Positions 7,390 through 36,471 of a DNA stretch of 64,000 nt are shown in pieces. The first letter of the stretch is position 1. Every line of letters begins with the position of its first letter. Below the pieces are notes generated by a model. That model did no database searches. It had not been told where the DNA came from and saw nothing but the letters and a program-made list of their open reading frames with translations. The DNA is from Leucobacter chironomi DSM 19883. Its GTDB lineage: Bacteria > Actinomycetota > Actinomycetes > Actinomycetales > Microbacteriaceae. Location: assembly GCF_000421845.1 (NCBI RefSeq), contig NZ_ATXU01000002.1, positions 124,001-188,000 on the forward strand. The letters run 5' to 3'. Made by a program: the position numbers and the translations under genes.

Positions 7390-9354
7390 ATGACTTCGAA
7401 GGACCAGCAGGACGAGGGCGCCGCGCGCCCGGATCGTGAACCGCCCCACCCCGAGGAGAGCGGCGACGGCGGCGAGGTTCCGCCGGAGACGCTTGCGGAG
7501 GCCGTGCTCGCCTCCGAGGCGGAGCTCGTCGAGCAGCTGAGCCGGGTGGCCGCCGCGATCCCCTCCGACCCGGATCTGCCGGTCACCGTGCACCTGCCGC
7601 AGTCCGTGCAGATCGCCGAAGACGACTCCGACGCGCGCATCACCGAGAAGCTGCGGCGCCACGGGGTGCGCATCGGGCGCGGCATGATCTCACCGCGGGT
7701 CTTCTGGCCCGCGCTCATCGTGATCCTGCTCGTCTCGCTGTTCGCGATTCTCGCCCCCTCCCTCGCCGAAGGCGTCTTCACCGCCGTGCAGAGCTGGATC
7801 GTCGAGAACCTCGGCTGGTACTACATGATCATCGTGGCCGTGTTCATCGTGGTGGCGGTCGGCATCGCGTGCTCGCGGCTCGGGCGGATCCGCCTCGGCC
7901 GCGATGACGATGTCCCCGAGTTCGGCGCGCTCTCGTGGTTCGCGATGCTGTTCGCCGCCGGTATGGGCATCGGTCTCGTCTTCTACGGCGTGGGCGAACC
8001 GCTCACCTACGCGACGGTGCAGCCGAAGCCCGGCTGGGAGGGCGACCAGGCCGAGCTCGCCGGTCTCGCCATGGCGCAGACCTTCGTGCACTGGGGCCTG
8101 CACCCGTGGGCCATCTACGCGGTCATCGGGCTCGCGATCGCGTACGCGATTCACCGCCGCGGCCGGCCCGTGTCCATCCGCTGGTCGCTCGAACCCCTCT
8201 TCGGCGAGCGCGTGAAGGGCTGGGTGGGCGACGTGATCGACGTGCTCGCGATCTTCGGCACCGTCTTCGGCGTCGCGACCTCGCTGGGCCTCGGCGTGCA
8301 GCAGATCTCCGCGGGCATGGCCGAGATCGGGGTCGTCGACCGGGCGAGCAACACGCTGCTCGTGGTGCTCATCCTCGTCATCACCCTCATCGCCATGTTC
8401 TCGGTGATCAGCGGCATCGGCGCCGGCATGAAGTGGCTCTCGAACATCAACCTGTCGATGGCGGGCCTGCTGCTCATCAGCGTGCTGCTGCTCGGGCCGA
8501 CCCTGTTCCTGCTGCAGAACCTCACGGAGTCGATCGGCTTCTATCTCGCGAACGCGCTGCAGATGACCTTCGACGTGGGCGCCTACCAGCGCTCGCCCGA
8601 GGCCACGAGCTGGTTCTCCGGCTGGACGATCTTCTACTGGGGCTGGTGGATCTCGTGGTCGCCGTTCGTGGGCATCTTCATCGCCCGCATCTCGCGCGGC
8701 CGCACCGTGCGCGAGTTCATCGCCGGAGTGCTGCTCGCCCCCACGCTCGTCGGCGTCGTGTGGTTCTCGGTGATGGGCGGTGCGGGTCTCTACCGGCAGC
8801 TCTTCGGCGCCGGCGACCTCGTCGAGAACGGTGAGGTGCACGTCGAGAGCGCCCTCTTCAAGGTGCTCGGCGACTTGCCCTTCGGCACGGTGTTCTCCGT
8901 GCTCGGGATCCTGCTCATCGCGATCTTCTTCATCACGTCATCGGATTCGGGATCGCTGGTGGTCGACATGCTCGCCTCGGGCGGCCACCCCAACCCGCCC
9001 ACCTGGTCGCGGGTGCTGTGGTCGGTGCTCGAGGGAGTCGTGGCGATCGCCCTGCTGCTCGCCGGCGGACTGCAATCGCTGCAGGCGGCGGCGCTCGCGA
9101 CCGCATTGCCGTTCAGCGTGGTGCTGCTGCTCATGAGCTGGTCGACGCTGCGCGCGCTGCGCATCGACCATCGGGTGCTAGAACGCGCCGAGCGCATCGA
9201 GCGCCTCGACAGAGTCACCGAGCACATCTCGAACGAGCTGGCGGGCACGATCACCGACATCCCCGAACTCGAATCGTGGGTCGACGACCGCATCGACTAC
9301 CGCATCTCGCGCACCAGGGGCGCCTTCGGGCGCAAAGCGGGGGAGAAGCGATAG
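7390..9354 (+). CDS. BCCT-family compatible-solute transporter
   Basis: A 654-residue betaine/carnitine/choline transporter. A cytoplasmic N-terminal extension of about 95 residues, acidic and Pro/Glu-rich, precedes twelve membrane helices. Family motifs are the glycine-rich AGMGIGLVFYGVGEP helix that lines the sodium/substrate path and the aromatic WGWWISWSPFVG helix that forms the betaine-binding box. The C-terminal tail is charged (DHRVLERAERIERLDR), like the osmosensing tail of BetP. Members import glycine betaine or related solutes with Na+ and are often activated by osmotic stress. The ATG at 7390 follows GGAGGGG. It is divergent from mntA and stands alone. Exact substrate is not assigned. 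Confidence 0.9.
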   Translation: MTSKDQQDEGAARPDREPPHPEESGDGGEVPPETLAEAVLASEAELVEQLSRVAAAIPSDPDLPVTVHLPQSVQIAEDDSDARITEKLRRHGVRIGRGMISPRVFWPALIVILLVSLFAILAPSLAEGVFTAVQSWIVENLGWYYMIIVAVFIVVAVGIACSRLGRIRLGRDDDVPEFGALSWFAMLFAAGMGIGLVFYGVGEPLTYATVQPKPGWEGDQAELAGLAMAQTFVHWGLHPWAIYAVIGLAIAYAIHRRGRPVSIRWSLEPLFGERVKGWVGDVIDVLAIFGTVFGVATSLGLGVQQISAGMAEIGVVDRASNTLLVVLILVITLIAMFSVISGIGAGMKWLSNINLSMAGLLLISVLLLGPTLFLLQNLTESIGFYLANALQMTFDVGAYQRSPEATSWFSGWTIFYWGWWISWSPFVGIFIARISRGRTVREFIAGVLLAPTLVGVVWFSVMGGAGLYRQLFGAGDLVENGEVHVESALFKVLGDLPFGTVFSVLGILLIAIFFITSSDSGSLVVDMLASGGHPNPPTWSRVLWSVLEGVVAIALLLAGGLQSLQAAALATALPFSVVLLLMSWSTLRALRIDHRVLERAERIERLDRVTEHISNELAGTITDIPELESWVDDRIDYRISRTRGAFGRKAGEKR

Positions 9355-35169: not shown

Positions 35170-35175
35170 TAGGAT
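35170..35175 (+). promoter_or_regulatory. -10 box TAGGAT for the sigma-fusion gene, leaderless
   Basis: TAGGAT ends six bases before the GTG at 35182. This is a housekeeping-type box, so the sigma-fusion gene may be made constitutively at some level. Confidence 0.55.
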
Positions 35176-35181
35176 GGACCG

Positions 35182-36471
35182 GTGCACACGCCCGGCCCTC
35201 ACCCCTCGGAGCACGCCGCCGAACGCGATCGGGTGATCGCTGAGGTCTTCGACTCGCTGCCGTACCTGATGGGGGCGGCGGTGCGCATCGCCCCGCACTC
35301 GTCGCGTCTTGATCACGAAGAGATGGTGCAGGCTGCGCTCGTGAAGCTGTTCGAAGCGATGGAGGCGAGGAACGAGCCGATCACAAACCCTCGCGCCTAT
35401 GCGGCCACGATCATGCGCAACAGCCACACGAACGAACTGGTCTCGGCTCGCTCGGGTACTCAGTCGTGGGGCGATCTCGACGCGCTGCCGAGCGAGTTCA
35501 TATCGGTGGAGGCTAACGCCGAGCGGATGAGGAGGGCGGAGCTGAGCGACGAGTTCGCACTGGTGCGCCGCGCCCTGTCTGCCGTGAACCCGGAGTACCG
35601 GCTGCTGTTGCAGCGAGTGGTGGTCGAGGGTCGCAGGCCCCGCGAACTGGCGGCGGAGCAAAGACGCGAGGCGCCCGCGATCTCATCGGCGGTGGCTCGG
35701 GCGAAGGCCGCGCTGCGTCGCGCGGTGCTGATCGAGTTGCTAGGCGAGGGCGCCGACGAGTGCGTCGAGAACGCCCGCCGCCTTCCGGAACGAGTGCGCG
35801 ACGACCCCGCTCTGCATCGCTCGTCAGAGCGCGGCATTGCCCACGTCGAGCAGTGCGACGCGTGCCGGGAGGGGTGGCGGCGATTCGCCGCGCTGGCGAG
35901 CGCACTGGGCGTGCTACCGCTGCTGACGGTGTCGTTGCGGTGGCGCGCGGCGGTCGGGTCCGACGGCGCCGGGGATCCGCACGAGGCGGGCGGGGGAACC
36001 GGCGGATCGCGGATTGCGGCGGTGCCCGGAGCTCGGATCATGGCGGCCGTGGGTTCGGTGCTGCTCGTCGCGGCGGTGGGGTGCGTGGGCGCGTTCGTCG
36101 TGTCGAGCGGCGCGGGCTCACGGACCGCCGCGGAGGCTGACGCGGAGCCCGGTCTGCGCTATCGGTTCGAGGCCGCGAGCATGCGCTCGGAAGCCGGCCG
36201 GGCGAGCATCCATATCGACTTCGAAGTGCTCGACGAGGTGAGCTGGCAGATGCGGGAGCTATCGATCGAGTTGCCCGGGGGCTCCGGTCTCATAGCGCCG
36301 GACGGCTGGTCGTGCCACGGCGCGAATCCGATCGCCTGCATGCCGGATTCCGCGCAGCCCGGGCCCGTGGTCTTCGGCGTGGAACTGGGCCATCCGGGGG
36401 ATTTCCGGGTGAGCTTCACCGCCGAGGCTGGCGGCGCGGCGCTGCGGGGCAGTGCCTGGAACACATTCTGA
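35182..36471 (+). CDS. ECF-like sigma factor fused to anti-sigma-type zinc motif, membrane helix and exported domain
   Basis: A 429-residue four-part protein. Residues about 15-90 match sigma region 2 (HEEMVQAALVKLFEAM, then NPRAYAATIMRNSHTNEL, a -10 recognition-type helix). Residues about 120-190 match region 4, with NPEYRLLLQRVVVEG and a helix-turn-helix. His221, Cys225 and Cys228 (HVEQCDACREGW) form the HxxxCxxC motif of zinc-containing anti-sigma factors. A membrane helix spans about 286-308, and residues 310-429 form a beta-rich domain outside with one Cys pair (SCHGANPIAC). So sigma factor and its likely inhibitor are on one chain, tethered to the membrane. Release would need proteolysis or a conformational switch. 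The large surface protein starts 105 bases downstream and is the obvious target or ligand. Confidence 0.8.
   Translation: MHTPGPHPSEHAAERDRVIAEVFDSLPYLMGAAVRIAPHSSRLDHEEMVQAALVKLFEAMEARNEPITNPRAYAATIMRNSHTNELVSARSGTQSWGDLDALPSEFISVEANAERMRRAELSDEFALVRRALSAVNPEYRLLLQRVVVEGRRPRELAAEQRREAPAISSAVARAKAALRRAVLIELLGEGADECVENARRLPERVRDDPALHRSSERGIAHVEQCDACREGWRRFAALASALGVLPLLTVSLRWRAAVGSDGAGDPHEAGGGTGGSRIAAVPGARIMAAVGSVLLVAAVGCVGAFVVSSGAGSRTAAEADAEPGLRYRFEAASMRSEAGRASIHIDFEVLDEVSWQMRELSIELPGGSGLIAPDGWSCHGANPIACMPDSAQPGPVVFGVELGHPGDFRVSFTAEAGGAALRGSAWNTF

Follow-up and report, generated by a model that had tools for sequence, protein, structure and literature searches.

The window, a 64,000-nucleotide stretch of the Leucobacter chironomi DSM 19883 genome, contains on its plus strand an open frame with a GTG start (35182 through 36471) that encodes a 429-residue protein. 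Its parts are sigma region 2 (residues 26 through 88; 35257 through 35445), sigma region 4 (about residues 121 through 181, the lower bound being approximate; 35542 through 35724), a zinc anti-sigma (ZAS) motif consisting of C194 and H221xxxC225xxC228 (35761 through 35865), a predicted membrane helix (residues 283 through 308; 36028 through 36105), and a predicted outside β-sandwich that includes Cys378 and Cys386 (residues 318 through 428; 36133 through 36465). A surface-protein gene (36577 through 40994) follows on the same strand and is split into two overlapping frames within tandem DUF11-like repeats. The first frame (36577 through 37986) has a signal-peptide-like start and DUF11-like repeats; the second (37884 through 40994) has repeats and a sorting signal, formed by an LVQTG sortase motif (40866 through 40880), a hydrophobic stretch, and a basic tail.

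A reading of the locus made beforehand from the letters alone (herein the sequence-only reading) had placed a huge surface gene downstream in the same direction. This neighbor is present and fits the linkage pattern described below; here, however, it lies in two overlapping frames, between which the repeat register shifts from 444 to 440 bases. The break may be a sequencing error, a mutation, or phase variation, which look alike in one draft assembly. If the locus were decaying, with a silent sigma fusion and a pseudogene as its target, a frame-broken surface gene would be expected, but the sigma frame is intact with all its motifs and error is inseparable from mutation in a single draft assembly; we consider decay very improbable. 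A role in anti-phage defense was rejected, as PADLOC gave no match to the fused sigma factor or to either frame of the surface gene.

Sigma region 2 is matched by Pfam (PF04542, E = 1.2e-6), and NCBIfam TIGR02937 covers sigma regions 2 to 4 (residues 40 through 181, E = 1.8e-12, above cut-off). No Pfam region 4 model matched the window protein taken alone; region 4 was assigned from TIGR02937, which extends to residue 181, and from a family profile compared with PDB entries. This profile (A5), built from 24 fused sequences including the window protein, aligns across both regions with ECF sigma factors of solved structure (SigL, E = 1.1e-16; CnrH, E = 2.7e-16), and a Foldseek search with the first part of the structural model returned ECF sigma factors of M. 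tuberculosis as top matches (E = 7.3e-5). Thus, the proposal that sigma regions 2 and 4 share the 429-residue chain is borne out, as is the wider claim that both regions, a zinc motif, a single helix, and an outside domain are on one polypeptide. The fused order recurs in many other independent genomes, in some of them on a single contig, and the fusion in the window is therefore no artefactual join of two genes.

His221, Cys225, and Cys228 were confirmed at the positions given for them in the sequence-only reading, which had overlooked a fourth ligand, Cys194. All four zinc ligands are invariant across 24 aligned rows, in part by choice, because these rows were selected for being fused. A Cys lies 20 to 36 residues ahead of HxxxCxxC in 96 of the 108 distinct fused members of the sample described below, members that were themselves taken for HxxxCxxC. 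Of the 24 profile members, 8 match zf-HC2, the Pfam zinc finger reported for SCO4117 as well; the window member had no match to it at E ≤ 0.01.

Assignment of the membrane span rests on hydropathy, since the AlphaFold2 model (built from six sequences; mean pLDDT 68.6, pTM 0.38) shows residues 283 through 308 as helical at a pLDDT of only about 28 to 37. Basic residues are more numerous before the helix than after it in 59 of 100 members with a clear helix, equal in 30, and more numerous after it in 11; this charge trend favors an N-in/C-out topology. Two hydrophobic stretches after the zinc motif were scored in 66 of 111 members, and two helices would place the C terminus inside. The first of these stretches is short in the window clade, which together with the charge trend disfavors a second helix there. 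Hydropathy thus supports the single helix that had been proposed, and the AlphaFold2 model supports the outside domain as a β-sandwich of ∼110 residues. Its strands have block pLDDT values of about 69 to 92 from residue 321 onward, with the placement of domains in the model being unreliable (pTM 0.38). A single-sequence fold was poor (pLDDT 47.8), yet its ectodomain strands were much the same.

Foldseek matched the outer part to weak appendage-type sandwiches only (E = 3.5e-3 and worse), and the ectodomain had no Pfam match at E ≤ 0.001. We found neither a proline-rich stretch nor a carbohydrate-binding domain in the window protein sequence; a C-terminal sorting signal is also absent, and the protein does not qualify as a sortase-anchored surface protein. 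By eye, the ectodomain could plausibly be a DUF11 domain in common with the neighboring surface protein; this was unsupported by Pfam or by a profile of the window-ectodomain clade. The clade profile retrieved sigma fusions, including a split one (E = 5e-4), and no surface protein above noise, the best two further ORFs having E values of 0.012 and 0.045. The split member, in L053, has a fused sigma factor at 8730 through 9608 and its ectodomain on the next ORF (9611 through 10174), either as a split gene or through a frame break.

By its sequence, the window protein is of the ECF48/52/53 kind, but without the stalk and carbohydrate module of ECF52. It combines sigma regions 2 and 4, as recognized by TIGR02937 and by the family profile, with the zinc motif C/H...HxxxCxxC and with a membrane helix plus outside extension, as indicated by hydropathy, charge, and the ectodomain model; the proline-rich stalk and carbohydrate-binding domain expected of ECF52 were not found. 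The A5 profile also retrieved two members with NPCBM ectodomains (L203 and L205), which we take to be the domain smart00776. According to passages of PMC5826349, the ECF52 member SCO4117 of Streptomyces coelicolor combines an ECF domain with pfam13490, a membrane region, a proline-rich stretch, and smart00776; the window protein resembles it in having an ECF domain, zinc finger, one membrane region, and outside domain on one chain, and differs in its short Ig-like domain and its link to a sortase-substrate gene. Passages of PMC8999054 describe ECF48, ECF52, and ECF53 of Actinobacteria as extended at the C terminus by a fused ZAS-like zinc finger with one or two membrane helices, and proteolytic activation is expected of them; those passages mention no surface-gene link for ECF48 or ECF53. 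They also describe IutY of Pseudomonas putida (ECF243), similarly a membrane-bound chain that unites sigma and anti-sigma and is released by proteolysis, but one that serves iron-starvation cell-surface signaling in a Gram-negative organism (PMC8999054). The premise of the sequence-only reading that sigma and anti-sigma are normally separate, and their fusion abnormal, is not supported by these accounts of a known class with the same layout (PMC8999054 and PMC5826349); the fusion alone is therefore not new.

The context of the protein does seem new, namely the expansion in Leucobacter, the pairing with sorting-signal genes, and the paralogues with pilin domains. At E ≤ 1e-6 the A5 profile has matches in 52 of 54 Leucobacter genomes, with up to 25 per genome, counts in which plain ECF sigma factors may be included. 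At E ≤ 1e-40 its matches fall in 95 of 249 genomes of Microbacteriaceae and, across the class, in 97 of 296. Judged from the profile matches, the fused class seems to be expanded in Leucobacter. Our sample comprised 112 loci: the window, L059, L062, L064, a set of 28 (L031 through L058), and a set of 80 (L070 through L149), the last chosen in list order with duplicates and one locus with six in-frame stops skipped; the sample leaves out lower-scoring and unlisted profile matches. These loci yielded 118 profile matches, 111 of them with HxxxCxxC after residue 130, and a hydrophobic helix follows the motif in 101 of the 111. There are 108 distinct fused members, that of L064 being from another genus. 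A scan for named relatives gave six loci, from OLIS6, 7(1), AS15tlH2ME_24 (two), the Actinomycetota bacterium isolate LEU1, and a Micrococcales MAG. The window genome itself encodes three fused members; a further, shorter match was regarded as a plain sigma factor.

Sorting signals were scored as L/I/V/M/A/F/Y/W/G-x-x-T-G in the final 60 residues, with a hydrophobic stretch and a basic tail, in ORFs of at least 150 residues; the rule overlooks genes truncated by the end of a stretch. Fused genes flanked by 3 kb or more on each side, 92 in all, were counted. A sorting-signal ORF lies within 1.5 kb of 61 of these 92 genes, compared with 3.1% of random positions, figures that are descriptive rather than P values because orthologous loci among the 92 are not independent. 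A strict rule (L or I first, at least 300 residues) again gave 61 of 92, with 1.0% at random. The control consisted of 4000 random pseudo-genes in 20 stretches of 20 kb taken at preset positions in five genomes; these stretches contain three sorting-signal ORFs (two under the strict rule), one of which (17688 through 20000 in L168) is directly beside a fused sigma factor (16377 through 17612), so that the control is not free of signal. The neighboring surface gene of the window therefore belongs to a real pattern.

The nearest sorting-signal ORF is upstream on the opposite strand in 24 cases, downstream on the same strand in 20, upstream on the same strand in 13, and downstream on the opposite strand in 4; a few of these may be spurious overlapping frames. 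In the window genome, all three fused sigma factors have a sorting-signal neighbor; that of the contig 3 member, counted from L224 where alone it is complete, is divergent, 2192 residues long, and ends in an LSTTG signal. Four plain-ECF loci contain three sorting-signal ORFs, none adjoining the sigma factor. Co-occurrence of sigma fusion and surface protein, for which the earlier reading had suggested a survey, holds in Leucobacter and extends to 6 of 10 loci from other Microbacteriaceae (L186 among the ten being the L064 locus again). Among the open-license literature matches listed, we found no report of such repeated pairing.

Proximity of this kind could also arise if the protein were an ordinary ECF52-like sensor of the envelope or of carbohydrates and the nearby surface genes were hitch-hikers in variable regions rather than its targets. 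Relatives from other Actinomycetes families are in keeping with such a role, their ectodomains being assigned by Pfam to NPCBM in the two members named above, DUF642 (L198), and Ig plus ricin-lectin (L204), and none of 10 chosen loci from four other families has a sorting-signal ORF within 1.5 kb. Hitch-hiking is harder to reconcile with the steep drop in the density of sorting-signal ORFs as the gap widens: 0.338 per kb at a gap of 0 to 1 kb and less than 0.02 past 5 kb, although the density rises a second time, to 0.097, at 4 to 5 kb. It also sits poorly with nine sigma factors whose pilin-like ectodomains are encoded in one locus with a pilin, and we regard it as rather unlikely.

Seven of these nine are fused Leucobacter sigma factors that end in a sorting signal (L054, L074, L118, L121, L131, L135, and L139; 7 of 108 distinct members), and two more, from another genus, adjoin a pilin (L220 and L221), for a total of nine genomes in two genera. 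Each of the nine has, beyond the membrane, a pilin C-terminal domain and a sorting signal of its own, and shares its locus with the pilin that it resembles, which ties the sensor to the surface product. In each of the seven Leucobacter loci a larger LPxTG ORF (1284 to 1353 residues) lies 43 to 165 bp downstream and a smaller one (515 to 680 residues) is also present; the sigma ectodomain is 44 to 58% identical to the C-terminal part of the smaller ORF over 142 to 199 residues. In L054 the smaller ORF matches GramPos_pilinD1, SpaA, and Gram_pos_anchor, and a sortase gene follows. When 101 ectodomains were searched against their own loci, seven matched a non-sigma ORF, every one of the pilin type. 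By whole-profile coverage, the pilin type occurs in 7 of 54 Leucobacter genomes and, with the three best candidates per genome scored across 398 genomes of the family, in two genomes of a single other genus.

The nine relatives resemble Spa-type sortase-assembled pilins in their pilin C-terminal domain, E-box, and sorting signal. In Leucobacter the E-box is kept in 7/7 sigma factors, and they differ from Spa-type pilins in the YPK motif, which is present in 7/7 of the pilins and 0/7 of the sigma factors checked; the window protein has neither such a domain nor such a signal. Lys436, Glu519, and Asn556, presumably the isopeptide triad as in Spa pilins, are invariant in the alignment of pilin-type sigma factors. 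All nine pilins have a sorting motif with proline (LPLTG in seven, LPMTG in two), and all nine sigma factors one without it (LARTG in three, LSNTG and LSMTG in two each, LAQTG and LVNTG in one each). Class E sortases recognize LAXTG according to passages of PMC5148588, so that four of the nine sigma signals fit class E, and we infer that sigma signals may be routed through a class E sortase. Co-evolution of each sigma ectodomain with its own pilin was unsupported; the own pilin scores best in only two of seven. The duplication is probably old.

In one branch of the family, the sigma factors may themselves be substrates of sortase. Their sigma part would be cytosolic, and their far end, which comprises a pilin domain, its isopeptide residues, and an L-A/S/V-x-TG signal, would be covalently joined to peptidoglycan or to a pilus, with the window protein as an unanchored cousin that senses the same class of event. 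We put this forward tentatively, as possible although we would sooner expect it to be wrong than right. If true, transcription of the pilus operon would respond directly to wall or pilus assembly, or to tension between the wall and the membrane, and the pilin-sigma fusions, if anchored, would amount to transcription factors stitched into the cell wall. Among the open-license literature matches listed (titles and abstract starts), none concerned sigma factors with a fused pilin or with a sorting signal.

A possible −10 element, TAGGAT, lies at 35170 through 35175 on the plus strand, 6 nt before the GTG of the window gene, consistent with a leaderless start. The word TANNNT is found 5 to 8 nt ahead of the in-frame start in the window gene and in 7/7 Leucobacter pilin-type genes; it looks like a housekeeping promoter, and its position ahead of an in-frame GTG in all seven pilin-type genes suggests leaderless transcripts. 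Across the full set of 108 members, the word is a weak signal (preceding 15 of 342 in-frame vs. 8 of 342 off-frame start codons). A common ECF promoter upstream of the pilin-type sigma factors was rejected, as no ECF-type word in the seven upstream sequences used, of nine, rose above shuffles (best bipartite word 3/7; shuffles 3 to 4). The lack of a common ECF word, together with TANNNT before the start, counts against simple autoregulation.

We favor, as somewhat more probable than not, a one-component membrane-tethered ECF sigma factor that is held by its ZAS domain in cis and is cut and released on a surface signal to serve the neighboring surface gene. The cytosolic σ2-σ4 part would be kept inactive by the ZAS domain next on the same chain, and a single N-in/C-out helix would display the Ig-like β-sandwich outside. 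This outer domain would monitor the surface; what it reads is probably whether the adjacent sortase-anchored protein is being displayed or assembled. On signal, a first cut in the chain would fall outside and a second, made by a site-2 protease, inside the membrane, and the freed sigma part would direct RNA polymerase to the neighboring surface gene and to others. The computed basis for this model comprises the domain order, the zinc ligands, the hydropathy helix with a charge trend for its orientation, the predicted ectodomain fold, the linkage to sortase-substrate genes, and the presence of sortases and an M50 protease. The window genome encodes two sortases and a single M50 site-2 protease homologue, the M50 family also matching 14 of 14 control genomes. 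Release might instead need no proteolysis, if a change of conformation transmitted through the membrane freed sigma from the cis ZAS domain while the protein stayed tethered. The ZAS domain does directly follow region 4, and by eye the alignment has no conserved cleavage motif; a tethered sigma factor, however, would presumably reach few promoters, and IutY, the only characterized case of the mechanism in the passages of PMC8999054, needs Prc and RseP. We judge such a switch improbable, and proteolytic release remains our preferred reading.

Single-chain sigma switches of this kind form a large family in which many members have a sortase-substrate gene next to them, and they offer a directly testable route to surface-display sensing; to our knowledge, how Gram-positive bacteria sense the making or display of surface adhesins and pili is largely open. 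In outline, the arrangement is similar to SigI/RsgI, in which the outer domain of the anti-sigma factor is similar to components of the surface machine encoded by genes under the control of RsgI; there, sigma and anti-sigma are encoded by separate genes and belong to other protein families. SigI/RsgI of Clostridium thermocellum is named in passages of PMC10766802.

Several loci differ in the surface protein beside the sigma factor. Close relatives of the window sigma factor (L059, 9459 through 10709; L064, 7855 through 10380; L032; and L033) adjoin surface proteins that by eye have RCC1-like repeats, and the L031 sigma factor adjoins one with leucine-rich and Listeria-Bacteroides repeats (Pfam); across these five loci the sigma type is constant while the surface partner changes. 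On the minus strand of L048, two fused sigma factors (8811 through 10202 and 16817 through 18214) are each followed by their own large sorting-signal protein (1464 and 1601 residues). A low-complexity stalk and a conserved tail, YFGDW-(T/S)-x-W, characterize the members in L147 (6940 through 8136; window genome, contig 11), L222 (6867 through 8003), and L223 (6368 through 7795), and the fused sigma factors of L043, L113, and L127 end in a different tail, DD...P-(N/H)-W; such conserved C-terminal tails are possible peptide tags for a surface partner.
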